Shown here piece after piece: positions 35,012-50,642 of a DNA stretch of 64,000 bases; position 1 is the stretch's first letter; every line of letters starts with the position of its first letter. The stretch comes from Mesorhizobium sp. Root552. Lineage in GTDB: Bacteria; Pseudomonadota; Alphaproteobacteria; Rhizobiales; Rhizobiaceae. Location of the stretch: contig NZ_LMFV01000023.1 of NCBI RefSeq assembly GCF_001427285.1, positions 62,001-126,000 of the forward strand, in the 5' to 3' direction. The notes below the pieces were generated by a model. It searched no databases, had not been told where the DNA came from, and saw nothing but the letters and a program-made list of their open reading frames with translations. Both the position numbers and the translations under genes were made by a program.

Positions 35012-37705
35012 CTAGATTTGCCAGTCGGATTTGAAGAGGTCCGCAAGTTCAATGATCTTGTTCGGCAGCGCAGGACCATCGCAGGTCATACCCAAGTATG
35101 TGGCCGCGCGCGTTGCGCCTACGTAGAGATATTTGTCGAACAGCTCCGGTCGACGCTGCGCCAGTTCATCGACGCCGATAAAGAAGACCGCTTCAAATTC
35201 GAGGCCTTTGATGTGTTGCACATCAAAAATACGGATATCGTTCTCCTGACCGACGAACTGCCCGTCATGACACGGTACGACGTTTAGATTGCTGTTAGAA
35301 AGTGCGATCTTCAGACTATCGGCCAGCGGGCCAACGGCTTCTTCGTCATTGACGAGTATGGCCACTGAGGGAAGAGGGGTGGTCAGTTTTTCGATCTCGA
35401 TAATTCTCGCCACCAACCAATCAACGATGTCGATGTGGTTCGAAAGACGTGTGGCCAGCACGGGGTCAACACCAGCGCTATTCACGTCCTTCGGCAACAC
35501 CACATCCACAGACTCTCCAGAACACAATCGCACGATTTCGCTTGCGAGATGGCTAAGCTGCTCGCTGTGGCGATAAGTAACCTGGATCGGGCGGACCTCG
35601 ATCCTTGGGAAGGCCCATTTCATATCGACAGTTGATCGACTACCCCAACTCGTAATGCGCTGATTGAAGTCCCCGCAGGCGAAGAACGATGAAATCCGAG
35701 GGTTAGAAAGTTCCCCCATGCAAGCCAGCTGCAAAGGCGAGAAATCCGTGGCTTCATCAACCATGACCTGGTTGCGTGTAAGGCCAAGAAATTCTTTTAT
35801 GGCCCCAAAGACAGGTTCGTCTATTCTCCTGACCACACCGCGTTCGCGCGCAAGCCCGCTCAATGTGCGCAAAGAACATAGCAACATCGCGTCAATCTCC
35901 AGCGGTCCGGCATCGGCGGCTGAAGCTTGGGTGCTACTATACCAAGTGCCTTCGGCTTGCCGCATGCGCCGGAATCGGCGGTAACGGGCAGGCAAGCCGT
36001 TCACATAGCGGCGAACCGGATTGGTAAATCGACGCAACGCCGTCTGTAATTGCAAACTCTCGCCGAGTTCGCGCAATTCCGGCTGAGCAAGCGTTCTATC
36101 TGCAATCCAAGTTGCGATTTTCCCTGCTCGTGTATTCTTGGACAGAGTGCGCCCACTGATACGTGCGCGAGCCTGACTGCGGATGTTGCGTGAGAAGGTT
36201 GCGGCTGCAACGGCAAGTCGGGTCTTGGGACTTTGGCCTTCTTCTTCGTCGTCTGAATCAGCGTCTTCGCTTTCGTCGTCGTCGCTGCCAAGCGCATCCA
36301 GAAACGCAGCCATTTCATGAAGCATCTGTCGGTCGCGGTTGACCGCTAGATTGAGATGACTCCGAAGAAGGCTGTCTGAAGCGGTCTTCAGCGTGTCCAA
36401 CATCGTTTGAGCTTCGCCACTTAGGTCAACGATCTCGACAAGTGCCGAGGACAGCGGCGACTGTTCTGTGCGGCGAACGATGGTTTCAGCGCGTTCCCCC
36501 AGCCTCCCAGCCACCGCGCTCTTGTTTCTTGACATGGCGGATGCCGCCGTTACGAGCTCGTCCCAGAAATCGCTCCTCTCCCATGCAGCGAAATCCTCAA
36601 ACCATTCAGTCTGACTGGCCAGCACCTCTGGCAGGAGCGGGTCAATGTCCTTGAGTACGTATGAGCCTCCGCCGGTTGACCCACGCAGGATACGGAAGTG
36701 GTTGCGCGCCAGATCGTGCCGGTATTTTGTCCAGGTCGAGATCTTTTGATCGGGGGCAGCAATTCCCTCCCGTGCAAAAGCTTCTTTGAGATACTGCTTG
36801 AGCAGCTCTGTAGGCGTGAACATAAGCCAGCTATCGCTATGCGACAGCTGAGAATCTCCGACAGCTCTATCGATTAAGACGCGTTCTTGCTCGTTCAGAT
36901 ACTCGCGGTCCGCTTTCTGTCCTAGGCGGCGAATCAATGTTGTGGTTTTCCCTGTTCCGGGAGGGCCCACGATCAGAAGTTGGCTGTCTAGGCTGAGTCG
37001 GAAAATTTCATCCTGATATCGGTCCAGAATGGGCTGATCTCGTAAGCCCATCTTGGTGATGACGTTGCGCTTTATACCGTCAAGGATGTTTGCTGCCTTT
37101 TCATCCTCCGCAAGAATGGCATCAAGGAGGTTCTCTTCCTCGGCAGCCAGGTCTGCGCCATCAAGCAAGTCACGCATTGAGATGACGGTGACGGGGCCAT
37201 AGGCCCCGGTCTTGAGAATTGAATCTCGCGAGTCCCAGCCCTGCCGGTTGCTAAAGGCGTGAAGGAGAGCTTTTTCAACAATCTGAACGGATTGTAGACC
37301 GCCTGGGGTACGAAGCTCATAATCGTCGCCAACGTCAAGGGATGCGAGACGCCCGGCGGGTGTATTTCGTCCAGCCAGTTTGTGGGGGCTGCCCGGGATA
37401 CTTTCAGCTGTGTGGCGGCAGATATAGTAGACGAGGGGTTTCCCGTCTTCCGGAAGGACCACTACGCGCGCTATGGCTGGCTCTGTCGTCAGGGATTCGA
37501 GATTTTGACGACGCGCGCCGTCGATTGAACTCAGAGATTTTGCCGCAGCACCGGAAGTGAACGAGTTATAGCTGGCCAGCGCGTGCGGACCCGTTGCATG
37601 CGGCTCACGCAATCGCGTTTCAGCGGTTGAGGCGATTGTCTCAAACACTGAGAGTGTCTCCGCTGCCACTCGCGTTATATCGATTCGCTGTTCTTCCGTG
37701 CTCAA
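35012..37705 (-). CDS. UvrD-like SF1 helicase in SPARTA operon
   Basis: An 897-residue superfamily 1 helicase. Walker A is VGPPGTGKTTTLIRRLG (about residues 247-254), motif II is VDEATDFSPLQ, motif III-like CGDFNQRITSWGSR, and the C-terminal motifs are HIKGLEFEAVFFIG and LYVGATRAATYL. A TTG start was chosen: it is preceded by GGGGGG and lies 22 bases after the Argonaute stop, whereas the ATG at 37,768 overlaps that gene. It is the last gene of the operon and is not a usual part of SPARTA. It may load or unwind target or guide, which is inference. Confidence 0.85.
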   Translation of the reverse strand: MSTEEQRIDITRVAAETLSVFETIASTAETRLREPHATGPHALASYNSFTSGAAAKSLSSIDGARRQNLESLTTEPAIARVVVLPEDGKPLVYYICRHTAESIPGSPHKLAGRNTPAGRLASLDVGDDYELRTPGGLQSVQIVEKALLHAFSNRQGWDSRDSILKTGAYGPVTVISMRDLLDGADLAAEEENLLDAILAEDEKAANILDGIKRNVITKMGLRDQPILDRYQDEIFRLSLDSQLLIVGPPGTGKTTTLIRRLGQKADREYLNEQERVLIDRAVGDSQLSHSDSWLMFTPTELLKQYLKEAFAREGIAAPDQKISTWTKYRHDLARNHFRILRGSTGGGSYVLKDIDPLLPEVLASQTEWFEDFAAWERSDFWDELVTAASAMSRNKSAVAGRLGERAETIVRRTEQSPLSSALVEIVDLSGEAQTMLDTLKTASDSLLRSHLNLAVNRDRQMLHEMAAFLDALGSDDDESEDADSDDEEEGQSPKTRLAVAAATFSRNIRSQARARISGRTLSKNTRAGKIATWIADRTLAQPELRELGESLQLQTALRRFTNPVRRYVNGLPARYRRFRRMRQAEGTWYSSTQASAADAGPLEIDAMLLCSLRTLSGLARERGVVRRIDEPVFGAIKEFLGLTRNQVMVDEATDFSPLQLACMGELSNPRISSFFACGDFNQRITSWGSRSTVDMKWAFPRIEVRPIQVTYRHSEQLSHLASEIVRLCSGESVDVVLPKDVNSAGVDPVLATRLSNHIDIVDWLVARIIEIEKLTTPLPSVAILVNDEEAVGPLADSLKIALSNSNLNVVPCHDGQFVGQENDIRIFDVQHIKGLEFEAVFFIGVDELAQRRPELFDKYLYVGATRAATYLGMTCDGPALPNKIIELADLFKSDWQI

Positions 37706-37727
37706 AATGCCCCCCCTGTAGTGCTGT

Positions 37728-39254
37728 TTAAATGTAATGGCGAAACGGAAGGGGTTTAGAGCCCACATCAGGAATCGCCGTTAATATTTCGCCGATATCG
37801 TCTGCAAATCTCAAGGTAACGGGTAAGCCGTCGCCAAAGAGGCAGGCGTTGAAGTTGATTTTTGTCAGTGCGAGGATATCCGCTAAAACCTGATTGATTT
37901 TTGTTTCACCAAATACGATGCGGACTTTCAAAGGTGACGGCACCTCACGACCGGGGTAGGTCTTGAGTTTAGGAATGTAACCCAGCGTCCACAAAAATGC
38001 GTTGCGGTCGTCCATAGGGAGAGCAAGCCCACGCAGGATAGGGCGACGCCCCTCGCTGAACAGCTTTAGATCATTCGGACGTGTTATCTGTATTCCCGTG
38101 ATCTTTGTGCCAGCGGGAACGGCGCTGCGGAAACCCTCGATTTCGGTCGAGCTGAATCGCGTGCGGCCATGAATAAACACTTCGGCCGGTGGTTTACCGT
38201 GCCAAGTGATATAGCTGTCAATTGAACGACGCACGATGTCGGCGGCCTTCTCTTGCGAGAGGTGAAACTCGCCGATCTTGTCCGATCCCCACGCACCGAC
38301 AGCCCCTTTGAACACAATCCCCTCTCCGGTGTGCAGAAACATCTGCGCGCCGCAGCAGGCCTCATTCCTATCGTGCGGATTATTGGTGCGCTTGAAGACG
38401 AGTCCGATATAGCACACACCCTCCCGGATATCTGAAAGTGTCCAAGGTTTGGCGCCAGCCTTGTAGTATATCGCCGTTGTCAGGTTCCACGCGATCGTCG
38501 CGTCATCCTGAAGCTTGCGGAGCGGCTTGCCCCGAGCGTTCAGAAATTCCTGCGGTGCGATTGTTGTCTGCCGCACGATTTGAGTAACGGCCTCGCAGGC
38601 CAGCAGCTTGGCTTTCAGCTGGTTGTGGAAATGATTCTCATAGAGATGTTTTTCTGCGGCGAGATTCGTTTCCTCAAACAAGTCCGGTGCGGCCAGAATT
38701 TCAATTGCGCGTGCGTGCGAAAGATGATGTTCAGCTTGGATGCCCTCACGCCGGCTTAGTGTCGACTGTGGCCGGCAGAGCTTCCAAACCTCTTCCGGAA
38801 TGACTACGAACCAAAGTGAAACCCTCGGGTCTTCCTCTTTCACGAAGCGTTGAATGGGATTGGCGAAGAGATCGACCGTATCAAATACGCGCTGGTGCGG
38901 GTCGCTGAGTTTGACAGTTCTGGCGAGCTTGTCGGGATGAACTTCGAGTTTCACGCGCGGTGCAGATGGCCATGGCCATCTAAATACCGTCTCAAAGCCG
39001 GGGAACGTTACCGAACTCCCGACTTTCTCGTCCCGAGGAACAGTTTTCTGGATTTTCGCACACCACGACTCAAACTGTTGGATGCCTTCTGGTGTGCCGA
39101 TCACGCCGTATTGTACCCCGAGGGGCGCTTCCGGCGGTCCGAAAAGCAGCAAGCCGTCCTTTGGGTCCTCCAGGGTTTGGTCGTAACCAAATCGTAGACG
39201 CGGTTCGCTGAACGGCACGAGCATCTTGGGCGGCGGTTTATGCCTTTTCTTCAT
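37728..39254 (-). CDS. Short prokaryotic Argonaute (MID-PIWI), SPARTA subunit
   Basis: A 508-residue protein consistent in length with short prokaryotic Argonautes that contain only MID and PIWI domains. The C-terminal half shows PIWI-like segments in order: VCYIGLVFKR, QMFLHTGEGIVFKG, AEVFIHGRTRFSSTEIEGFR, and DILALTKINFNACLFGDGLPVTLRF. The last Leu/Thr-Lys-Asn-like stretch is the family's PIWI end. Short Argonautes are catalytically inactive and use a guide RNA to sense target DNA, then switch on the partner. ATG start follows AGGGGG; it overlaps the TIR-APAZ gene by 17 bases. Confidence 0.85.
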   Translation of the reverse strand: MKKRHKPPPKMLVPFSEPRLRFGYDQTLEDPKDGLLLFGPPEAPLGVQYGVIGTPEGIQQFESWCAKIQKTVPRDEKVGSSVTFPGFETVFRWPWPSAPRVKLEVHPDKLARTVKLSDPHQRVFDTVDLFANPIQRFVKEEDPRVSLWFVVIPEEVWKLCRPQSTLSRREGIQAEHHLSHARAIEILAAPDLFEETNLAAEKHLYENHFHNQLKAKLLACEAVTQIVRQTTIAPQEFLNARGKPLRKLQDDATIAWNLTTAIYYKAGAKPWTLSDIREGVCYIGLVFKRTNNPHDRNEACCGAQMFLHTGEGIVFKGAVGAWGSDKIGEFHLSQEKAADIVRRSIDSYITWHGKPPAEVFIHGRTRFSSTEIEGFRSAVPAGTKITGIQITRPNDLKLFSEGRRPILRGLALPMDDRNAFLWTLGYIPKLKTYPGREVPSPLKVRIVFGETKINQVLADILALTKINFNACLFGDGLPVTLRFADDIGEILTAIPDVGSKPLPFRHYI

Positions 39255-40692
39255 CCGCATCCCCCTCTTCGTCATCCTCCACCAATTCGATCTCTGCGTT
39301 TTCGTCCAGTCCCTCTCGCTCGTCGTCGTAATATGTCCATGGGCTGGTGATCTGCATGCTTGCCGCCTCGACATCGATACAGCAGTCGCCCCCGACATCG
39401 AGAGATAAGCTGGCTTGGCTCTCGCATAGTGTTGTCATGAAGGCCCGCAGTCTGTCGCGCCACTCGGCATTCCACCAGTTCTTGCATACGCTCCGTCGCG
39501 CCTTGTGCATGCGGTCGGCCGCAGACCAAGGGGTGATGCCGTCGTCGGTGAAGATGACGTGATGCTTGAGGACTAGACGCGGGAAGGGTGAAAGCTGCGG
39601 CCAGGCCGATACAGCGTAATGCCAGTAGCCATCCGGCACGCGCGTGCCGTCAATTGTCCTCCGTGACTTAGTTCCTACAACTTGCCGAAACGAGCGCTTA
39701 CCTGGCGTGCTTTCGTAGTAGCCCCGATTTTTATCCAGAACGCCGGCTTTGAAAAACCAGGCCTTCTGTCCATTGGCCATCGTGTGAAACGCAAAGCCTC
39801 GCGTTTCCATTGTTCGTTCCCAGGCCTGTCGTATGAGGTCGCTCAAGATATTCGCAGCATCGAATGCGGCGACGCTCAGCGTCTCAAATCCGTCGTTTGC
39901 AAACGATGTTGAGGGGCAATCCAGCGTTTCCGAAAAATGCGGTCCGAGTCGGTCTTCGACGACGGCCCGGGATGCAAACGTGACCAGAATTTGACCAAGA
40001 ATTTTGTACGGATATCCTAGAGCACCAGCAGTTCCGGTCAAAGCGTCAGAAGGGCCCCTGAATTTGTGGAAGTAGAGTCTGTCTGGTAGCTTGAAAGAAA
40101 ACCAGTTCGACTGACAACGCTCGCGTGACACGACAATGCGACGCTTGTAGTCGATGGATCGCCGGTACCAATCAGCGACACAAGCCGGTCCCGCTGCGGC
40201 AGACTTTGGAGCACCTTCCCGCTCTAGAAGCTTGAGCAGTCGGCTAAGTCCGTGCGCCCAAGTTTCATCGAAGCGCACGCAGTTCAGATCCTGAATGGAC
40301 GGCTGCATACTTTGGAAAGGAAAGTCATCGATCTTCAGCGGAATGACAAAATCGCCAAGCTGGTATTTCTCGCGCGTATCCAAAGCGAGGCGCAGTTCTC
40401 TCAATGTGCCCGGCTTGCGATTGCCTTCCAGCGTCGAGACAAACAGGACGCGAAAGGCACCGGCATCAATCGCCTCATCAATATCATCCCACCAAGCCTC
40501 ACCACCCAGAAGCGCTGTGACATCACACCACACCTCATAGCCGGCGATTGCGAGCTGCGTGGCGAGCCACTCGGCAAAAACGTTATCTTGCGGCGTTGCG
40601 TGACTGATGAATATGATGCTGCGTACGCGGCTCGGAGCGACCACGGCTGCGGGCTTGCTGACTGGCTTTGGCAACTCACCAATATCCGACAA
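39238..40692 (-). CDS. TIR-APAZ protein, SPARTA effector
   Basis: A 484-residue fusion of an N-terminal TIR domain (about residues 25-160) and an APAZ domain that pairs with short Argonautes. FISHATPQDN, GYEVWCDVTALLGG and FRVLFVSTLEGNR match the TIR domains of SPARTA systems. Target sensing triggers NAD(P) hydrolysis and cell death or dormancy. The helix WWDDIDEAID carries the expected acidic position; whether the catalytic Glu aligns with Asp72 or Glu73 is unclear. TTG start: GGAG lies 6 bases upstream; an ATG frame 59 codons earlier overlaps the DUF2188 gene. Confidence 0.88.
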   Translation of the reverse strand: MSDIGELPKPVSKPAAVVAPSRVRSIIFISHATPQDNVFAEWLATQLAIAGYEVWCDVTALLGGEAWWDDIDEAIDAGAFRVLFVSTLEGNRKPGTLRELRLALDTREKYQLGDFVIPLKIDDFPFQSMQPSIQDLNCVRFDETWAHGLSRLLKLLEREGAPKSAAAGPACVADWYRRSIDYKRRIVVSRERCQSNWFSFKLPDRLYFHKFRGPSDALTGTAGALGYPYKILGQILVTFASRAVVEDRLGPHFSETLDCPSTSFANDGFETLSVAAFDAANILSDLIRQAWERTMETRGFAFHTMANGQKAWFFKAGVLDKNRGYYESTPGKRSFRQVVGTKSRRTIDGTRVPDGYWHYAVSAWPQLSPFPRLVLKHHVIFTDDGITPWSAADRMHKARRSVCKNWWNAEWRDRLRAFMTTLCESQASLSLDVGGDCCIDVEAASMQITSPWTYYDDEREGLDENAEIELVEDDEEGDADEEKA

Positions 40693-40705
40693 CGTACGCT
40701 CCGAT

Positions 40706-40948
40706 TTAGTTTCGTTTGTCGCGCGGCGGAAACGGATCGCGGCCAGGAGAAACCGTATCCGAGTCGCGCCACCGGCCGTCGCGGCCTTGGATGCGCACTT
40801 CGCCGCCTCCACTCTCGCGGACTGTTTCCTTGGCTGCGCGTTCGGCCGCACTCTGGGTACCATAGACACCTTCCGGACGAGCGATGCCGCCTTTCTTTAC
40901 CGCCCAGTCGTTTCCGTGACGGACAACGAAGCGATCATTCTTGGCCAT
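40706..40948 (-). CDS. DUF2188 domain protein
   Basis: An 80-residue basic protein with a DUF2188-like fold: RFVVRHGNDWAVKKGG, then YGTQSAAERAAKETVRES and GGEVRIQGRDGRWRD. This small beta-alpha domain often binds nucleic acid or occurs as an uncharacterised stand-alone protein. It is the first gene of the SPARTA operon, 13 bases before the TIR-APAZ start. The ATG follows AAAGGAG; a 25-codon upstream extension would run into the operator. Its role in the system is unknown. Confidence 0.8.
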   Translation of the reverse strand: MAKNDRFVVRHGNDWAVKKGGIARPEGVYGTQSAAERAAKETVRESGGGEVRIQGRDGRWRDSDTVSPGRDPFPPRDKRN

Positions 40949-41033: not shown

Positions 41034-41054
41034 ATACCCTTTCGTGGAGCGGTG

Positions 41055-41969
41055 ATGGATCAGGAAAATTCAGGTATCCGGTGGGGGGTCGAGCAGCGGC
41101 TCGAATTCATCGAGTTCCGGCTTTTCTGGGAAGGCGGCGTTAATCGATCCGACATCATCGACGTATTCGGCGTGTCGGTACCGCAAGCTTCCAAGGACCT
41201 CGCGCTCTACCAGGAACGCGCGCCTGGAAACGTGGACTATAACAAGAGCGCCAAGCGCTATGTCGCGGCCAAGAGATTCGCGCCGCGATTTTTAAGGCCT
41301 GACCCGGATGCTTACCTGTCCCGACTGCGTTCCTTGGGCGAAGGCCTGTCGGCTCCGGTCGAATCGTGGATTGCGCACCCGCCCGAGACCGATATCGCGC
41401 TGACCCCGAAGCGCGACATTAATACGGATGTGCTGCGCGCCATCCTCGAAGCGGTGCGCGACCATCGCTCGCTCGAAATCCACTATCAATCAATGAGCAA
41501 GCAGCGTCCCGATCCAGTCTGGCGGCGCATTACCCCTCACGCCTTCGGCTATGACGGTTTTCGCTGGCACGCCCGTGCGTTTTGCCACATCGACGGGAAG
41601 TTCAAGGACTTTCTGTTGCCACGCGCCCTGAAAGTCCGCAGTCCCGGCGAGCCGGGCAAAGCAGGGGCAAAGGATACGCTTTGGCATGATTTTTTCAGTT
41701 TCGAGATCGTACCGCATCCCGATCTTACGGCCAGCCAGCAGGCGGTCGTAGCCAAAGATTATGGAATGATTGAAGGTAAATGTGTGCTCAAGGTGCGCTA
41801 TGCCATGCTTTTTTATGTTCTTCGCCGGCTGGGATTATTAGGAGATGCTTCAAAATTACCGGCACGGCGGCAACATATTGTTGTTTCCAACTACAGTGAT
41901 GTGCAAACTGCGCTGGAGCGCGCTGAATTCTTTGAAAACAATACGGAAAATACAGGCGCGCAGGGGTAG
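41055..41969 (+). CDS. WYL-domain transcriptional regulator (BrxR/CapW-like)
   Basis: A 304-residue regulator. The N-terminal winged helix is LEFIEFRLFWEGGVNRSDIIDVFGVSVPQASKDL, and the middle WYL domain includes LEIHYQSMSKQRPD, ITPHAFGYDGFRWHARAFC and FKDFLLPRALKV. A C-terminal WCX-like domain follows. In defence operons such proteins repress expression until a signal binds the WYL domain. The gene is divergent from SPARTA and only 2 bases ahead of the helicase fusion gene. A GTG one codon upstream is an alternative start. Confidence 0.88.
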   Translation: MDQENSGIRWGVEQRLEFIEFRLFWEGGVNRSDIIDVFGVSVPQASKDLALYQERAPGNVDYNKSAKRYVAAKRFAPRFLRPDPDAYLSRLRSLGEGLSAPVESWIAHPPETDIALTPKRDINTDVLRAILEAVRDHRSLEIHYQSMSKQRPDPVWRRITPHAFGYDGFRWHARAFCHIDGKFKDFLLPRALKVRSPGEPGKAGAKDTLWHDFFSFEIVPHPDLTASQQAVVAKDYGMIEGKCVLKVRYAMLFYVLRRLGLLGDASKLPARRQHIVVSNYSDVQTALERAEFFENNTENTGAQG

Positions 41970-41971
41970 TC

Positions 41972-44900
41972 ATGGTTCGGCTTGAAGAGATAAAGGGGGG
42001 CGCGTTTGTGCGCGGCATTGTGCCGCGGCAACCGGTCGAGATCATATCGCTCGACTGGATCGGTCAGCAGGCCGTCAATGTCGTCTTCCGCGACCAGAAC
42101 GGAGCCGTCGCCGAAGGAACGCTGTATCGCGACGATGAGCACCGGCTCGAACTCGATGCGCGCGGCAGGCTCTGGTCGTTTGATGCCGATGGCGGGCTTC
42201 TCCGGCTTGTCACCGAAGCGAACCGTATCAAGCTCGCCCATTATTTCGATCCGTATCTCGCCATTCACACGAGTCTCGTCGATCCGCTGCCGCACCAGAT
42301 TTCGGCCGTGTACGGCGAAATGCTGCCGCGTCAGCCGCTTCGCTTTTTGCTGGCCGACGATCCGGGCGCGGGCAAGACCATCATGGCTGGCCTGCTCATC
42401 AAGGAGCTGATCGCGCGCAGCGACCTGGAGCGCTGCCTTGTTGTCGCGCCCGGCAGCCTTGTCGAGCAGTGGCAGGACGAGCTTGGCGAGAAATTCAACC
42501 TGGAATTCGACATCCTCACCCGTGACATGATCGAAACCTCCCGGTCCGGCAATCCGTTCAACGATCATAACCGCCTGATCGTCAGGCTGGACGTGCTCGC
42601 ACGCAATGAGGAACTTCGAGACAAGCTGCTGACATCGCAGGAATGGGATCTAATTATCTGCGACGAAGCGCACCGCATGTCGGCCACCTATTTCGGCGGC
42701 GACGTGAAATACACCAAGCGTTATCAGGTCGGTCAAAGGCTCGGGCAGATTTGCCGCCACTTGCTGCTGATGTCGGCAACTCCGCATAACGGCAAGGAAG
42801 AAGACTTCCAGCTCTTCATGGCCTTGCTCGACGGGGACCGTTTCGAAGGACGATTCCGTGACGGCGTCCATTATGCCGACACCGAAGACATGATGCGGCG
42901 GCTGACCAAGGAGGAACTGCTCAAGTTCGATGGCCGACCGCTCTTCCCCGAACGCCGCGCCTATACCGTCAAGTACGAGCTCTCTCCCAAGGAAGCGGCT
43001 CTCTACAGCGCCGTGACGGATTACGTCCGCACGGAGATGAACCGCGTCCAGCGTTTTGCCGAAGGCGACAATAAAAAGCGCAACAATGTCGGCTTCGCCT
43101 TGCAGATTTTGCAGCGCCGCCTTGCATCGTCACCGGCGGCGATTTACCAGTCACTGAAACGCAGGCGTGAGCGGCTCGAAAACGAGCTTGCCGAGGCGCG
43201 TCTTGCCGCGCGCGGCCGTCCGGGTGACGGTCTCGGCGAGGCCGGCGTCAGCAGCGAAGTCCTGCGCAATATCGAGGAATACGGACAGGAAGAAGTCGAC
43301 GAGCTGGAAGACATCATTTCGACCGGGGCGACGACGGCCGAAACGATCGATCAGCTGGCCATCGAAGTCGACACGCTCAAAAACCTGGAGCAGATGGCAC
43401 TTGGCGTTCTCCGCTCCGGTGAAGACGCCAAGTGGTCGCAGCTCAATCGCATCCTTGATGACGACCTCATGGTCGATAGCCACGGCAACCGGCGCAAGCT
43501 CATTATCTTCACCGAACCCAAGGACACGCTGCACTACCTCGTTGATAAGGTGCGGTCGCGGCTTGGCAATCCTGAATCCGTCGATGTCATCCATGGCGGG
43601 GTCACGCGCGAAGAACGCCGCAAAGTCATTGAGCGATTCATGCAGGACCGCGACATGCTGGTCCTGATCGCAAACGATGCCGCCGGCGAAGGTGTGAACC
43701 TTCAGCGCGGGCATCTGATGGTCAACTATGACCTGCCGTGGAATCCGAACAAGATCGAACAGCGCTTCGGTCGCATCCATCGTATCGGTCAGACGGAAGT
43801 CTGCCATCTATGGAATATCGTGGCCGCCGATACGCGAGAAGGTGAGGTCTATGCCCGCCTTCTCGAAAAGCTGGAAGCGGCCCGCGAAGCGCTGGGCGGT
43901 CGGGTTTATGACGTTCTGGGTGAGCTATTTGAAGGCGTGGCGCTCAAGGACCTGCTGTTTCAGGCAATTCAGTACGGCGAACAGGAGGACGTTCGCGCAC
44001 GCCTGTTTCAGCAGGTGGACGGGGCGGTGGATCAGGAGCACCTGCTGGAGCTGCTAAAGCGCCGCGCTTTGACCAATGACACGATGCCGGAAGCGCAGGT
44101 GCATGAACTCCGGCTTGAGATGGAGCGGGCCGAGGCCCAGCGTTTGCAGCCCCATCATATCCAGAGCTTTTTCGTCGAGGCTTTTCAGCATCTCGGCGGG
44201 CGCTTGAAACAGCGCGAGGAAGGCCGCTGGGAAATCACCCATGTGCCTGTCCGCATCCGGGAGCGCGACCGGCAGGTCGGCAGCGGCGCGCCCATCCAGA
44301 AGAAATACGAACGCATCTGTTTCGAGAAGAGCGCAATCAACCAGCAGCCGGTCGCAACATTTGTGTGCCCGGGCCATCCGCTTCTGGAATCCGTCATCAG
44401 CATCATTCGGGAAGACTACGATCAGCTGATGAAGCAGGGGGCCATTCTCGTCGATGACACGGATATGGACACCGACCTTGCCGCCATCTTCCTGCTTGAG
44501 CACAGCGTTCAGGACGGACGGCTGACCAGCACCGGCAAGCCGCACATCATCTCTCAGAAGCTTCAGTTCGCGTCCGTTGATAAAGAAGGCCGAACCACGA
44601 ATGCGGGAATTGCCCCGCACCTCAATCTCCGCCCGGCCACACCGGAAGAAATTGCGCTGGTTCAGGACCAGCTGGATGAGCCCTGGTTGACGGCAAATCT
44701 GGAAAAGACCGCCGTGCAGTTTGCGACGGTCGAGCTTGCGCAGGGGCACGTCGCCGAAGTGAAGGCTCGCCGCATCCCCGAGATCGGCAAGGTCGAGCAG
44801 GAGGTGAAAGCGCGCCTCAAGAAGGAGATCAATTACTGGGACAGCCGCGCCTTCGAGCTTAAGGAAGAGGAAAAGGCCGGCAAGAAGACGCGCCTTAACT

Positions 44901-46375
44901 GGCAGAATGCCGAACGGCGTGCCGAAGACCTCGCCGAACGGCTCAAGCGCCGTCAGATTCAGCTTGAGCAGGAGCGATTTATCTCGTCGCAGCCGCCGCG
45001 CGTCAGGGGCGGCATGGTGGTGATCCCGCGCGGACTGCTTGCGGGTCGCTCGGCGGATGTCCTTGATGACCTGCTGCGCAGGCGCTTTCCCTGTCCCGGA
45101 TCTCTGTCTCATCTTCGCTCCTTTGAAAGGCCAGAAATCCTCCGTTCTCGGTTAAACCGCTTTGGTCCCATCAGCGCTGACGCCGGACACTACGATAACA
45201 TTGCCTATTCCATCCTGTCAGACTTTTTCTACAGCTGGCTACGACCGACGCTTAAGGATGTCGCTCCAGAGGTGTTTAGTGTTCTGTCCACGCCGAAAAC
45301 AGAGGAGCTGGTAGCGATCGCATCCAGGCATGGCGGACGCGACGGGGCCGAGCATTTCTTTATTGACGGCATGACGAAAGCGATTGCGCGGATGGTGGCG
45401 AATGGCTCCCAAGAATTCCCAGCAACGATCTACTACGCTTTCAAGCAGAGCGAGGTGAAGGACGAGGGCATAAGCTCCACAGGTTGGGCTACCTTCCTTC
45501 AAGCCGTGATTGAGGCGGGCTATGCCGTTGTAGGTACTTGGCCAATACGCACTGAGATGGCGAACCGGATGATCGCCTCAGGTACCAACGCCCTTGCCAA
45601 CTCGGTTGTCCTCGTTTGTCGCAAGAAGGAAGCGACCGCAGCCACCATCACCCGTGCCGAATTCATCCGTGCGCTAAAGCACGAATTGCCTCCGGCCATA
45701 GCTGAGCTTCAAGCCGCTAACATCGCGCCTGCTGATATGCCGCAATCGGCCATCGGCCCCGGGATGGGCGTCTTCTCACGCTATAAGGGTGTGTTGGAAG
45801 CCGATGATAAGCCTATGACCGTCAAAACGGCTCTACAACTGATTAATGCCGAACTCGATGACTATCTCGGCGGCATTCAGGGTGAGTTTGACGCCGACAC
45901 TCGCTTTGCGATCACATGGTTTGAGCAGAATGGATTAAAGGCGGGCGACTATGGGGTCGCCAACAATATCGCGACAGCACGAGGTATTTCTGTCGACAGC
46001 GTCAAACATGCAGGAATCGTTGAGAGTGTTGCCGGAAACGTTCGCGTCCTTAAGCGCGATGAGATTGATACTGATTGGGACCCGGATACCGACCCGCATC
46101 TGACAATCTGGGAGTGCCTTCAGCATTTGGTTCGATTGCATGAGAAGGATGGCATCTCACACGAGGCTGCTGTCATGTTGAAGAAGATCGGAGACAAGGC
46201 GGAGGCGGTCAAAGATTTGGCGTACTGCCTTTACGATATCTGCGCCAACAAGCGGCAGGATGCCAAGGAAGCTACGGCCTACAATGCCCTGATCGCGGAC
46301 TGGACGGAACTGACGCGCGAAGCAGCAACAATTCACGACACGCGCGGCGACGGCCAGACGCGAATGAACTTATAG
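41972..46375 (+). CDS. SNF2-type helicase fused to DUF1156 methyltransferase remnant
   Basis: A 1467-residue protein. Residues 1-1040 are a SNF2/SF2 helicase of the DISARM DrmD kind: Walker A DDPGAGKT (about 130-137), DEAH at 231-234, and ANDAAGEGVNLQRGHLMVNYD and QRFGRIHRIGQ in the C-lobe. From about 1065 the sequence becomes the C-terminal part of a DUF1156 DNA methyltransferase: DNIAYSILSDFFYSWLRP, TIYYAFKQSE, TWPIRTEMANRMIASGTNAL. The methyltransferase motif DPPYYDN reads DAGHYDN, and its whole N-terminal part is absent. The join is in frame; a deletion seems to have removed the stop, intergenic DNA and the methylase 5' half. No methyltransferase activity is expected. Confidence 0.85.
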   Translation: MVRLEEIKGGAFVRGIVPRQPVEIISLDWIGQQAVNVVFRDQNGAVAEGTLYRDDEHRLELDARGRLWSFDADGGLLRLVTEANRIKLAHYFDPYLAIHTSLVDPLPHQISAVYGEMLPRQPLRFLLADDPGAGKTIMAGLLIKELIARSDLERCLVVAPGSLVEQWQDELGEKFNLEFDILTRDMIETSRSGNPFNDHNRLIVRLDVLARNEELRDKLLTSQEWDLIICDEAHRMSATYFGGDVKYTKRYQVGQRLGQICRHLLLMSATPHNGKEEDFQLFMALLDGDRFEGRFRDGVHYADTEDMMRRLTKEELLKFDGRPLFPERRAYTVKYELSPKEAALYSAVTDYVRTEMNRVQRFAEGDNKKRNNVGFALQILQRRLASSPAAIYQSLKRRRERLENELAEARLAARGRPGDGLGEAGVSSEVLRNIEEYGQEEVDELEDIISTGATTAETIDQLAIEVDTLKNLEQMALGVLRSGEDAKWSQLNRILDDDLMVDSHGNRRKLIIFTEPKDTLHYLVDKVRSRLGNPESVDVIHGGVTREERRKVIERFMQDRDMLVLIANDAAGEGVNLQRGHLMVNYDLPWNPNKIEQRFGRIHRIGQTEVCHLWNIVAADTREGEVYARLLEKLEAAREALGGRVYDVLGELFEGVALKDLLFQAIQYGEQEDVRARLFQQVDGAVDQEHLLELLKRRALTNDTMPEAQVHELRLEMERAEAQRLQPHHIQSFFVEAFQHLGGRLKQREEGRWEITHVPVRIRERDRQVGSGAPIQKKYERICFEKSAINQQPVATFVCPGHPLLESVISIIREDYDQLMKQGAILVDDTDMDTDLAAIFLLEHSVQDGRLTSTGKPHIISQKLQFASVDKEGRTTNAGIAPHLNLRPATPEEIALVQDQLDEPWLTANLEKTAVQFATVELAQGHVAEVKARRIPEIGKVEQEVKARLKKEINYWDSRAFELKEEEKAGKKTRLNWQNAERRAEDLAERLKRRQIQLEQERFISSQPPRVRGGMVVIPRGLLAGRSADVLDDLLRRRFPCPGSLSHLRSFERPEILRSRLNRFGPISADAGHYDNIAYSILSDFFYSWLRPTLKDVAPEVFSVLSTPKTEELVAIASRHGGRDGAEHFFIDGMTKAIARMVANGSQEFPATIYYAFKQSEVKDEGISSTGWATFLQAVIEAGYAVVGTWPIRTEMANRMIASGTNALANSVVLVCRKKEATAATITRAEFIRALKHELPPAIAELQAANIAPADMPQSAIGPGMGVFSRYKGVLEADDKPMTVKTALQLINAELDDYLGGIQGEFDADTRFAITWFEQNGLKAGDYGVANNIATARGISVDSVKHAGIVESVAGNVRVLKRDEIDTDWDPDTDPHLTIWECLQHLVRLHEKDGISHEAAVMLKKIGDKAEAVKDLAYCLYDICANKRQDAKEATAYNALIADWTELTREAATIHDTRGDGQTRMNL

Positions 46376-46385
46376 GGGGGCACTC

Positions 46386-49300
46386 ATGGCCAAAAGCACA
46401 CGCCAGCATGTTTTTGAAGGCATGGAATTATTGCCGGAGGGGCTGATCCCCTTCGTCGAAAAGCGCTTGGAAACCTCTGTAACCGGCCATTGGCAGGTCG
46501 AAGTCGTGCAGCGCGTTCAGGGGCTGAAGCCCAACAGCCAGGGCACAGCGATCGCGTGGGATCAGCAGGGACTGCTGAAGACTATGATGGCGTTCTGGAA
46601 GGATGCCTTCGCAACGGTCTTGGGGCACCCCGAGCGATCATACGTGTCCGAGCTGCTTGATGTCCGTAACAAGCTCGCGCACAACGAAAACTTCACCTAC
46701 GACGATGCCGAACGCGCGCTGGATACAATGCGGCGGTTGCTTGAAGCCGTGAGCGCTAGCGAGGTCGCGGAGAAGATCAGCGCATCCCGCGATACGATCC
46801 TGCGGACCAAGTATGCTGAGCTTCAGCGCAACGAGGAACGCCGGAAGACGCAGCGGAGTGAAATTTCGGTCGAGACCGTGGCCGGGCTTATGCCGTGGCG
46901 GGAAGTCGTGGAGCCGCACCAGGACGTGGCGACGGGCGAATTCCAGCAGGCCGAGTTCGCCGCCGACCTCGCCAAGGTCCATAACGGCAGTGCTCCGTCC
47001 GAATACCGCAATCCTCGTGAGTTCTTCGCACGCACCTATCTGACTGAGGGTCTCAGCAATTTGCTCGTCGGCGCAGCCAAAAGGCTTGCCGGCGCGGGCG
47101 GCGATCCGGTTGTCGAATTGCAGACCAATTTCGGCGGTGGTAAGACCCACTCGATGCTGGCGCTCTACCACATGGTCAGCGGCACCCCGGTCGGGGATTT
47201 GCCGGGACTGGACCAGCTTCTCTCAAAGAATGGGTTGACCGTTCCCGCGAAGATCAACCGCGCCGTGCTCGTGGGCACATCGCGCGGCCCGCAGGATGTT
47301 ATCAGTCTTGAAGGCGGCAGGCAGATTCGCACGACGTGGGGCGAATTGGCTTGGCAGCTGGGCGGCGCGGAATTGTTCGACATGGTCGCCGAGAACGATG
47401 CTCGCGGCATCGCGCCGGGTTCCAACCTGCTCGAAGCCATCTTCAAGAAGTGCTCGCCCTGTCTGATCCTGATCGACGAGTGGGTCGCCTATCTGCGGCA
47501 AATCTACAAGGTCGATGGACTTCCTTCTGGCTCTTTTGACGCCAACTTGTCCTTCGTCCAGGCTCTCACCGAGGCCGTGAAGGCCAGCCCCGGCACGCTA
47601 CTTGTCGCTTCGCTTCCGGCCTCCCAAATCGAGGTCGGTGGTGAGGGCGGCCATGAAGCTCTGGCTCGCCTCAAGCAGACCTTCAGCCGCGTCGAGTCGT
47701 CGTGGCGACCGGCCTCGCAGGAAGAAAGCTATGAGATCGTCCGTCGCCGTCTCTTCAAGGAAATCCCCGGCGACAAGTTTCATCACCGTGACAACACGCT
47801 GAAGCAGTACGCTAAGCTTTACCGGGAGAACGCGAATGATTTCCCGCAAGGCTGCGCGGATGAGGATTACCGGCGAAAGCTGGAGAAGGCCTATCCCATC
47901 CATCCCGAACTCTTCGACCAGCTCTATACCAGCTGGGGATCGCTTGAAAAATTCCAGCGGACGCGCGGTGTTTTGCGTCTGATGGCACAGGTTATCCATG
48001 AATTGTGGATGGGGAACGACCCGTCGGTCATGATTATGCCCGGCAGCGTTGCGATCAGCTCCGCACGCGTGGAGCCCGAACTGCTCCACTATCTCGACAC
48101 GAGCTGGCAATCGATCATTGCCGGTGATGTCGATGGCATCACATCGACACCTTATAAGGTAGACCAGTCTGCACCTAACCTGAACCGCTATTCTGCTACG
48201 CGCCGCGTTGCGCGTGCCGTGTTCATGGGAACCGCGCCGACACACGGTCAGGAGAATAAGGGACTCGACGACAAGCAGATCAATCTGGGGGTCGTCCAGC
48301 CCGGAGAGCGTCCTGCCATTTTTGGCGACGCCCTCAGGCGGTTGACCAACCAGGCCAAATTTATGCACAGCGACCTTGGCCGATACTGGTACTCGATGTC
48401 GGCCAGCCTCAACCGGATCGCGGCCGATCGCGCCGGGCAGTTCGAAGAGGCGCTTGTGTTGATGGAAATCGACAAGGCTCTCATCGGCTATGTTAACGGC
48501 CTGGGAGATCGCGGGCTCTTCGATGCCATCCAGATCGCACCCGGTAGCTCGTCCGATGTTCCCGATGAACGCGGGGGGGTCCGTGCGGTCGTCCTTGGCG
48601 TTGCCCACCCGCATACCGGACACGATGGCTCGGATGCGCACAACGAGGCCAAAGACATCCTGATGCAGCGGGGCAGCACGCCGCGCGTTTACAGGAACAT
48701 GCTCGTATTTCTGGCAGCGGAGCTGCGCCAGCTGGAAAACCTGAAGTCAGCCATGCGCTCGTCGCTCGCCTGGGCGGAGATCGTGCGGGAAATCGACCGT
48801 CTCAATTTGACGCAGAGCGACAGCGCACTGGCCAAGTCAAAGGTGGCGGAGGCGAACGAAACACTCAAAACCCGGATGAAGGAAGCTTGGTGCTACCTTC
48901 TCTATCCGGTGCAGGAAAGCGCACAGGCCGACCTTACTTGGACCACGGCAAAGATACCGGCGCAGGACGGCTTGCTGGCTCGTGCAAGCAAGAAGCTGGT
49001 AAGCGACGAAGGGCTGCTACCGGAACTCGGTCCCGCCCGACTGGACCGTGAACTCCAAAAGTACATCTGGAACGGCAAATCGCATCTTTCCCTTAAAGAT
49101 CTCTGGGAATATCTCAATCGTTATACCTACCTTCCCCGCCTGCAAAACCAGCAGGTGCTTGTGAAAGCAGTGCAGGCAGCGATTTCGGGGATGTTGCCGG
49201 GACCGTTCGCCTATGCCGAGCGCTGGGATGAGACCACGCAGACCTATCACGGCCTTGCCATTGAGAAAGCGGGTAACGTCCCGGTCGTTATTGACAGCGA

Positions 49301-49697
49301 CAGCGTCATCATCAAACCCGAGGTTGCGATCAGCAAGCTGGTCATCCCCACGCCACCGTCCGGCAGCGATACGGTGACCGATGGACAAGCTGGCGGCACC
49401 GGCTCGACGGGACAATCTGGTGATGCGGGAGACACCGGCGGAGCTGGCGCGCCGCCGCCTGAAAAACTGCCCACGAGGTTCATTGGAACGGTCATGATCT
49501 CCCCGGAACGTCCGGCACGGGAAATTCACCAAATTGTTGAAGCCATCGTCGAGCAGTTGACGACAATACCCGGCGGGGACGTGTCCTTAAAGCTTGAAAT
49601 CGACGCGGAAGTTCCTGGAGGCATGGACCGCGCCAAGGTCCGTACCCTCATGGAAAATGCAACAACGCTCGGCTTCATCGATAAAGTCGTGAGCTAG
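46386..49697 (+). CDS. DUF499 ATPase with N-terminal HEPN (Swt1) domain
   Basis: A 1103-residue ATPase. The N-terminus (about 1-125) is a Swt1-type HEPN domain with RNKLAHN (Arg94, Asn95, His99), suited to RNA cleavage. Walker A is NFGGGKTHS (about 248-255) and Walker B LILIDEWVAYL. A Gly/Thr/Ser-rich linker precedes a C-terminal domain. DUF499 proteins recur in defence islands beside DUF1156 methylases and helicases. It starts 10 bases after the fused helicase stop with GGGGGG before the ATG. Confidence 0.88.
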   Translation: MAKSTRQHVFEGMELLPEGLIPFVEKRLETSVTGHWQVEVVQRVQGLKPNSQGTAIAWDQQGLLKTMMAFWKDAFATVLGHPERSYVSELLDVRNKLAHNENFTYDDAERALDTMRRLLEAVSASEVAEKISASRDTILRTKYAELQRNEERRKTQRSEISVETVAGLMPWREVVEPHQDVATGEFQQAEFAADLAKVHNGSAPSEYRNPREFFARTYLTEGLSNLLVGAAKRLAGAGGDPVVELQTNFGGGKTHSMLALYHMVSGTPVGDLPGLDQLLSKNGLTVPAKINRAVLVGTSRGPQDVISLEGGRQIRTTWGELAWQLGGAELFDMVAENDARGIAPGSNLLEAIFKKCSPCLILIDEWVAYLRQIYKVDGLPSGSFDANLSFVQALTEAVKASPGTLLVASLPASQIEVGGEGGHEALARLKQTFSRVESSWRPASQEESYEIVRRRLFKEIPGDKFHHRDNTLKQYAKLYRENANDFPQGCADEDYRRKLEKAYPIHPELFDQLYTSWGSLEKFQRTRGVLRLMAQVIHELWMGNDPSVMIMPGSVAISSARVEPELLHYLDTSWQSIIAGDVDGITSTPYKVDQSAPNLNRYSATRRVARAVFMGTAPTHGQENKGLDDKQINLGVVQPGERPAIFGDALRRLTNQAKFMHSDLGRYWYSMSASLNRIAADRAGQFEEALVLMEIDKALIGYVNGLGDRGLFDAIQIAPGSSSDVPDERGGVRAVVLGVAHPHTGHDGSDAHNEAKDILMQRGSTPRVYRNMLVFLAAELRQLENLKSAMRSSLAWAEIVREIDRLNLTQSDSALAKSKVAEANETLKTRMKEAWCYLLYPVQESAQADLTWTTAKIPAQDGLLARASKKLVSDEGLLPELGPARLDRELQKYIWNGKSHLSLKDLWEYLNRYTYLPRLQNQQVLVKAVQAAISGMLPGPFAYAERWDETTQTYHGLAIEKAGNVPVVIDSDSVIIKPEVAISKLVIPTPPSGSDTVTDGQAGGTGSTGQSGDAGDTGGAGAPPPEKLPTRFIGTVMISPERPAREIHQIVEAIVEQLTTIPGGDVSLKLEIDAEVPGGMDRAKVRTLMENATTLGFIDKVVS

Positions 49698-49700
49698 GTT

Positions 49701-50642
49701 GTGACTCTGGTCTGTGTGAGGTTGGAAAAGAGCTTTGGTGTCGAACGACTTACTGCGCTAGCGGACACACGTGCGTCATTTCGCCGGAGTGATGGCACAT
49801 TTAAGACCGTGTCCGATACGACGACAAAACTCTTCGCAATCCCGGTTCGTTGCTATTCGCTAGACCAGCTCTCTCCAGTCGTCGGGGCATGGGGCACTCC
49901 ATATTTCGAGACGACTGTGGGCCTTGGATTCTCCGGGTCCTGCTTTGAGGCGCTGACGGTGATTGCACATATCACCCAGTCACTTTCTGCGCTCGTTGCC
50001 CCCGACGGAGACGAGCCCATCCCCACACGCGACGGCCTGACAAATCTGATTGCCAAGCTCTGTGAAGGCTATTTTAGCCAACATAGCGGTGACGGCGACC
50101 CCCTGCTTCTGCTTCTCGTCTTCGGCTTCGACGGTCCCAAACCCTGGATCGGGCGAATTACTTGGGATAAGTCGCAGGGGCTCCGATCGACTGTGATGTG
50201 GGCAACCGACGATACTTTGGAAACGGTTGGTCAGGATGCGCTATTTCAGCAGCGTGCTGACGATTTGCGGAAGCGCATCCAGAAGCACAGGGACAGGCTG
50301 TTTCATAAGCCTGTTTCCTCAATCCCTGACGCAACCTTCGACCGGGCGCTTGAACTTGCCCGATACGAACTTGCTGAGCGTAAATCTACTGAAGAAGAAA
50401 TGCTCGACCAAATCGAGTCTGAGTTTTTTGCCGGCATCGGTGGCGTGCTGCAGCGCCTTGAGTTGGCAGTAGAAGGAGAACGGGTTGTCGCCGGCTTTAC
50501 CCAAGATGATCGTAGCTATCTGGACGGCGCGTACTACAGCGTTGCGCCCGGCGCTTCTCTAGGGCCAATAGCGATAGTAGAGAAAATGGGGCGCAAGGTC
50601 CGGCGACCCAAGGCCGAACCCAAACCAGACAACGCGACATAA
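49701..50642 (+). CDS. Hypothetical defence-island protein, possible proteasome-like fold
   Basis: A 313-residue protein, starting from GTG 3 bases after the DUF499 stop and so surely in the same operon. The N-terminal half (VSDTTTKLFAIPVRCYSLD, TTVGLGFSGSCFEALTVIAHI) recalls the beta-sheet core and GxGFSG turn of proteasome/HslV-like Ntn hydrolases, but the N-terminal nucleophile is not obvious. The C-terminal half is helical (QRADDLRKRIQKHRDRL, YELAERKSTEEEMLDQIE). Its role is unknown. Its stop abuts the right-hand att of the 38-kb element. Confidence 0.7.
   Translation: MTLVCVRLEKSFGVERLTALADTRASFRRSDGTFKTVSDTTTKLFAIPVRCYSLDQLSPVVGAWGTPYFETTVGLGFSGSCFEALTVIAHITQSLSALVAPDGDEPIPTRDGLTNLIAKLCEGYFSQHSGDGDPLLLLLVFGFDGPKPWIGRITWDKSQGLRSTVMWATDDTLETVGQDALFQQRADDLRKRIQKHRDRLFHKPVSSIPDATFDRALELARYELAERKSTEEEMLDQIESEFFAGIGGVLQRLELAVEGERVVAGFTQDDRSYLDGAYYSVAPGASLGPIAIVEKMGRKVRRPKAEPKPDNAT

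Follow-up and report, generated by a model that had tools for sequence, protein, structure and literature searches.

The DNA analysed here, called the window, is a 64,000-nucleotide stretch of the genome of Mesorhizobium sp. Root552 (contig NZ_LMFV01000023.1, positions 62,001 to 126,000). The open reading frame listing gives a single open frame of 1,467 codons on its plus strand (window 41,972-46,375), in which an SNF2 helicase continues without a stop into the end of a DUF1156 methylase. This continuity, described in an earlier note made from the letters alone, was confirmed with PADLOC profiles: HmaA (PDLC00659) matches residues 1-1029 of the 1,467-aa product with 1464 bits, and positions 571-958 of the HmaB profile match residues 1067-1456 with 509 bits. 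The comparisons set out below indicate that this is probably (at about 0.82) a recently damaged locus of the Hma system, which is Type-1 BREX-related, where an insertion sequence (IS) of the IS3 family was inserted, a deletion took place and 10 bp were lost. The open frame, which reads HmaA' - IS remnant - 'HmaB, seems to be the outcome of recent damage and not a new invention.

The Hma system was named in PMC8565338, where, in the passages considered, HmaB is called an m5C methylase; PADLOC labels it an adenine methylase instead. The passages considered of PMC12839542 also present HmaB as an adenine methylase and describe Hma as a "Type-1 BREX-related" system centred on DUF499. In the same passages the helicase ends in an active PD-(D/E)XK nuclease in 1,921 taxa (79%), so that this nuclease is usual and not obligatory, the methylase consists of DUF1156, a core with a target-recognition insert and a C-terminal HTH-like (helix-turn-helix-like) triad, and DUF499 is fused to HEPN in 1,370 of 2,446 taxa. 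Operons with HEPN-DUF499 and SNF2 helicases fused to DUF3883 are also found in the portion considered of the HEPN survey PMC3710099. The window keeps the HmaA helicase, the HmaB tail and HmaC in order, with an HEPN-fused DUF499 ATPase and an upstream WYL gene as in relatives. It differs in that HmaA has no C-terminal nuclease, HmaB has lost residues 1-532, and with them DUF1156, the S-adenosylmethionine (SAM) motif and DPPYYDN (DPPY being replaced by DAGH), and both genes form one frame through an IS remnant.

Concerning the helicase, the DEAH (residue 231) and QRFGR (residue 597) motifs are present, and in a sequence search against the PDB it is closest to RapA, while HmaB and HmaC gave nothing useful there. 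The earlier note had called this helicase DrmD-type. That identity was rejected, as the NCBIfam DISARM model NF038317 scores 386.8 bits against a cut-off of 610; DrmD is a related SNF2 helicase and the second-best PADLOC family for this part of the frame, and the term holds as a likeness only. DrmA, DrmB and DrmC were not the best match for any of the seven genes scanned (35.0-50.6 kb), three further window genes were checked, and the DrmA profile matches weakly the window helicase itself.

The hinge between the two parts was first signalled by a tblastn search of the genome with the fused protein as query, where the fused frame was the sole full-length match to itself and residues 1001-1097 gave extra matches on other contigs. 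When the DNA of 44,960-45,260 was used as query against the same genome, 12 matches were obtained, the window itself and 11 on ten other contigs. Contig C63 begins with a sequence identical to positions 45,034-45,131 (98/98 nt), and the positions from 45,102 (or 45,104) to 45,189 are identical to the ends of contigs C48, C51, C22, C17, C28 and C9, save for one 10-bp gap; diverged copies lie on C18 (86%), C33 (74%) and C32 (71%). The boundary GGACA is common to the window, the six contig-end copies and C18, and is followed by different flanks; it is here that the mobile element ends. Its genes can be read on C63, with an orfA starting MRQRSGTGKAPAQQ that carries HTH_Tnp_1 and an orfB with rve, and their homologues in plasmid records are annotated as IS3-family transposases, one of them ISMch3-like (77%). 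The inverted ends, which begin TGTCCG, are likewise those of IS3-family elements. In contrast with a full element, of about 1.51 kb from the coordinates, just the terminal 156 nt are left at the fused locus (45,034-45,189, minus strand). They include the outer end at 45,189 and the first ~26 orfA codons, and are read antisense as a linker of about 45 residues; the other IS end has been deleted. A minus-strand frame (44,054-45,112) opens with the start of the IS orfA, as a remnant should.

The junctions were placed by comparison with the intact Hma locus of Sinorhizobium psoraleae (L054), whose proteins share 95% (HmaA), 83% (HmaB tail) and 93% (HmaC) identity with those of the window and whose upstream WYL gene is the same (87%), but where HmaA is intact (1,171 aa counted from where the match begins), HmaB is a separate gene (926 aa) and no IS is seen between them. 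On the right side, hmaB of S. psoraleae reads ...GACCCGCCTTACTACGACAAC..., encoding DPPYYDN, and the window reads ...GCCGGACA followed by C TAC GAT AAC, that is, the IS end, the third base of the codon for the first Tyr and then YDN. The IS end thus lies inside the DPPYYDN codons, so "DAGH" is IS sequence except for one base. The DAGHYDN motif reported by the earlier note is real, at 45,179-45,199 (residues 1070-1076), a few bases off the 45,174-45,190 that it gave. The hmaB gene resumes at residue 533 of the S. psoraleae protein, and the retained part (residues 533-926; window 45,190-46,375, plus strand) starts at the second Tyr of the motif and comprises the late methyltransferase part and the C-terminal helical part.

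On the left side, local DNA identity to S. psoraleae, Agaricicola (L055) and Roseococcus (L112), all intact, ends at 45,033-45,056, and IS identity begins at 45,034. The join falls within about 45,034-45,045, in bases common to HmaA and the IS: S. psoraleae reads CGCGGGCTGCTCGC and the IS reads AATACTGCTTGCGGG, thus 5-12 bases are shared (CTGCT at least), which suggests a microhomology deletion. By profile and DNA comparison the HmaA part covers residues 1 to ~1022-1025 (window 41,972-45,039, plus strand), and HmaA proper stops near residue 1024, the next ~45 residues being translated IS DNA; the earlier estimate of about 1040 helicase residues was therefore too long.

Regarding what was lost, the NOV_C (DUF3883) nuclease domain is found at residues 1050-1132 of S. 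psoraleae HmaA, and also in HmaA of locus L003, and in the HmaB of S. psoraleae DUF1156 spans residues 7-78, and residues 111-155 match a methyltransferase motif weakly; the domain scan found none of these in the fused protein of the window. The missing stretch amounts to about 147 HmaA residues, 532 of the 926 HmaB residues (57%, versus S. psoraleae) and about 1.35 kb of the IS. The earlier note was right about the N-terminal loss of the methylase, which it put at two-thirds, too large a share, and it did not contain the loss of the helicase's own C-terminal nuclease. HmaB residues 1-536 were found nowhere in the 63 contigs of the genome, since a full HmaB query retrieved just its residues 537-935, in the window, and the nuclease region gave nothing in this assembly (G000), although the same query recovered it from the two controls, genomes G330 and G036. 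A DNA search of the genome with the missing S. psoraleae stretch was also empty, but this one had no positive control. As neither the nuclease nor the N-terminal part of HmaB is present in the assembly, nuclease and catalytic methylase were lost together.

The frame itself depends on a second, smaller loss. The HmaA frame reads ...SLSHLRSFER, after which the other IS copies continue CTA CAA TGA, with a stop, and the window continues PEILRSRLNRFGPISADAGHYDN. The 10 bp missing here, between 45,131 and 45,132, are present in the seven other contigs seen across the site (7/7: C48, C51, C22, C17, C28, C9 and C18, the last with one base changed; the copies of C33 and C32 were left out of the count), and C63 has the first 5 of them and then breaks off. 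Without them the TGA is removed, and hmaA is therefore in frame with the hmaB tail. This loss may have been selected or may be due to chance; by our own estimate, an indel that removes the stop yields the correct frame about one time in three.

The order of events would be as follows. First, as the IS boundary shows, an IS3-family element was inserted within the DPPYYDN codons of hmaB, antisense to the operon. Then a deletion, shown by the intact relatives, took away the part of hmaA that encodes the nuclease, the spacer, the first 532 codons of hmaB and about 1.35 kb of IS sequence, probably in one event. At some stage 10 bp, which the other IS copies have, were lost from the IS remnant, removing the TGA and joining the frames. 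The intact relatives thus bear out the earlier proposal that a deletion joined the two genes, which had missed the IS3-family insertion as its cause.

An assembler that skipped a full IS together with the missing parts of hmaA and hmaB could produce the same join, and it is true that the hinge is a multicopy IS where seven contigs end and that C63 opens with an odd repeated IS end. On the other hand, none of the contigs carries the roughly 2 kb of missing unique sequence, a result for which each of the two pieces had a positive control, and the window copy has a private 10-bp gap. Moreover, the junction shares just 5-12 bp, and such a length is too short for ordinary overlap assembly. An assembly error at the join is quite unlikely.

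The occurrence of the fusion was explored in 97 loci (L001-L005, L039 and L043-L133), which include the best 80 of at least 588 confirmed stretches from genome contigs, and in surveys of 61 relatives, 397 genomes of the order, 385 of the class and 398 of the phylum. These surveys overlap, each includes the genome under study, one genome was taken per species and low-scoring helicase matches were ignored. In 72 of the 97 loci HmaA is in view together with some or all of the HmaB tail, and the two are separate frames in all 72; in the remaining 25, HmaA or HmaB was not found in the stretch covered. A fused HmaA-HmaB frame was therefore found in 0/72 loci and in no other genome of the four surveys, so the recurrence that the earlier note had recommended looking for did not appear. 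Under stricter criteria, 62 of the 80 loci from genome contigs contain complete HmaA and HmaB; 14 of the other 18 reach the end of the locus or contig by coordinates, and L057, L073, L089 and L123 are broken otherwise. The HmaA frames of relatives are mostly 1,167-1,215 codons from stop to stop, and shorter ones, with an inner stop or frameshift, occur in L111, L123 and L132.

These counts bear directly on the idea of a domain-fusion architecture that recurs in nature under selection. Neighbouring defence genes do commonly fuse, and the frame is open as such an architecture would require, but with no second fusion in the loci or among the strong matches of the surveys, a linker made of transposon DNA and a fused module that is a partial methyltransferase, this explanation is largely refuted and its chance is very slight. 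The literature passages, from open-licence papers, do not mention an HmaA-HmaB fusion, which was not searched by name.

Several of the loci surveyed show other irregularities. In Sphingobium limneticum (L057, 11516-15179) HmaA is full-length, HmaB was not found and just the last 163 residues of HmaC are present, which makes it another decayed Hma locus. In a metagenome assembly (L089, 12376-17785) HmaB is interrupted after ~62-80 residues by foreign frames, which from their translations look like a Tni-type transposon, and HmaA is complete. HmaB of L073 lacks the tail and keeps the catalytic motifs, beside a complete HmaA. L111 (11613-17353) has tandem HmaB genes, the first frameshifted near its end. 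In a Bradyrhizobium plasmid (L002, 15486-21092) hmaA is separated from hmaB and hmaC, which lie downstream of it, by three small genes and one for a TmtA-like ATPase, and in Rhodobacter sp. CZR27 (L003, 22319-25633) a gene with an N-terminal DruH-like match is directly 3' of HmaC.

The age of the damage can be judged from its state of preservation. The IS remnant has no substitution over 156 nt relative to the recent copies and there is no decay in HmaA, HmaC or the HmaB tail, therefore the event is recent. The same preservation can nonetheless be turned against a simply broken locus. At near-invariant positions (conserved in at least 95% of the other rows, after removal of rows that had stops or less than 90% coverage and merging of those more than 97% identical, leaving 60 rows for HmaA, 43 for HmaC and 67 for the HmaB tail), HmaA departs at 1/448 (row median 2) and HmaC at 0/454 (row median 3). 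Furthermore, the frame is open over all its 1,467 aa and undecayed, where a dead gene might have gathered damage, and the frame-joining 10-bp loss is the trace expected of selection for translation. An open, undecayed frame and a frame-joining loss are, however, also compatible with a recent event, and since there has been no time for decay, the conservation of near-invariant positions says little about selection. The HmaB tail departs at 3/134 (row median 1), and these are only the P, P and Y of DPPY. The earlier note had held that a single-strain occurrence with decay in the fused part would refute its proposal: the fusion was indeed seen in a single genome, at one genome per species, and decay is absent.

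Nor do substitution rates separate selection from a recent event. The ratios of nonsynonymous to synonymous rates (dN/dS) relative to S. psoraleae are 0.029 for HmaA, 0.051 for the HmaB tail and 0.035 for HmaC, but saturation is approached or exceeded at the synonymous sites, and the divergence is for the most part older than the fusion. In the comparisons with L054 and L055, dS is 2.3-3.2 for the HmaB tail (45190-46372), which is saturated, 0.9-1.2 for HmaA and 1.2-1.7 for HmaC; the higher values of the HmaB tail may reflect an exchange of hmaB alleles.

HmaC (window 46,386-49,697, plus strand; PADLOC HmaC, 959 bits) lies downstream of the fused frame and has an N-terminal HEPN_Swt1 domain, with the HEPN motif RNKLAH at residues 94-99, and a DUF499 AAA+ ATPase, both recognized by Pfam. 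The earlier description of this DUF499 gene as intact agrees with its lack of near-invariant changes.

As for function, the fused product should still be an ATPase of the SNF2 type. The NOV_C nuclease, the SAM-binding motif and DPPY are missing from it, as is, following the part of the domain map in PMC12839542 that was considered, the target-recognition insert; therefore it would neither restrict nor methylate DNA. Judging from these missing domains, the window most likely holds a crippled Hma locus that neither restricts nor methylates, with an intact HEPN-HmaC through which some leftover abortive function may persist. The earlier suggestion that the frame is a relic is supported. Its other suggestion, that the system may now work without methylation, is a possibility for which there is no positive evidence: the nuclease that methylation would guard against was lost in the same deletion. 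That the loss of the methylase forced the loss of the nuclease, by self-restriction, was an attractive idea, one deletion having taken both, but was set aside as speculation only, as L057 and L089 keep the HmaA nuclease without a complete HmaB.

Alternatively, the fused helicase and HmaB tail could have been kept as a sensor, which would set off the HEPN RNase of HmaC in abortive infection, turning a restriction-modification system into a suicide system. This would agree with a frame left open by the 10-bp loss, with the intact HmaA motifs, HmaC and RNKLAH, and with the last-resort effector role proposed for HEPN in the passages considered of PMC12839542. Structure prediction gives a divided answer. 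In the model of the hinge and HmaB tail (28 rows; mean predicted local distance difference test score, pLDDT, 65.7) confidence is fair to good for the C-terminal part of the tail, with values mostly of 63-95, but the hinge (about 30) and the start of the partial methyltransferase are predicted poorly, the first 100 residues falling in blocks of 26-56; over the whole partial methyltransferase the values are uneven (about 38-77). The model of full HmaB is of middling confidence, with a mean pLDDT of 70.6 and its lowest values at the N-terminus and near the SAM motif and DPPY, and the fold search of hinge and tail against the PDB gave no match at E <= 0.001. With a fusion known from a single genome, a poorly predicted hinge and a conservation that says little, there having been no time for decay, such a sensor is doubtful. 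More doubtful still is the complete scenario in which cutter and methylase were lost in one deletion, a small deletion reopened the frame and the product is now a methylation-free sensor firing the HEPN RNase of HmaC.

The genes around the damaged Hma locus were also inspected. Upstream of the fused frame, the domain scan identified a WYL-domain regulator (41,052-41,969, plus strand), a homologue of which is present in 57 of the 86 Hma loci tested, some of them cut upstream. Adjoining the operon and divergent from it (37728-40869, minus strand) are a TIR-type Argonaute-associated protein (39238-40869) and a short Argonaute (37728-39398), which we take to be a SPARTA-like pair. The end of the Argonaute gene is overlapped by the start of a gene for a 918-aa UvrD-like helicase (35012-37768, minus strand), with only weak GajB-like and similar matches. 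Directly 3' of HmaC, a 313-aa protein is encoded (49701-50642, plus strand). It had no family match and was found neither in 86 Hma loci, many of which end soon after HmaC, nor in plasmid records; in 297 genomes of the order, one homologue (61%, G311:C141) was found beyond the window's own copy.

The locus illustrates clearly how an IS insertion together with a deletion can build a convincing fused gene, which by reading of the sequence alone is mistaken for a new architecture. Moreover, if the remaining parts still have a defensive role, the HEPN arm would stand apart from restriction and methylation in this natural mutant, and the last-resort proposal, as worded in the passages considered of PMC12839542, would become testable.

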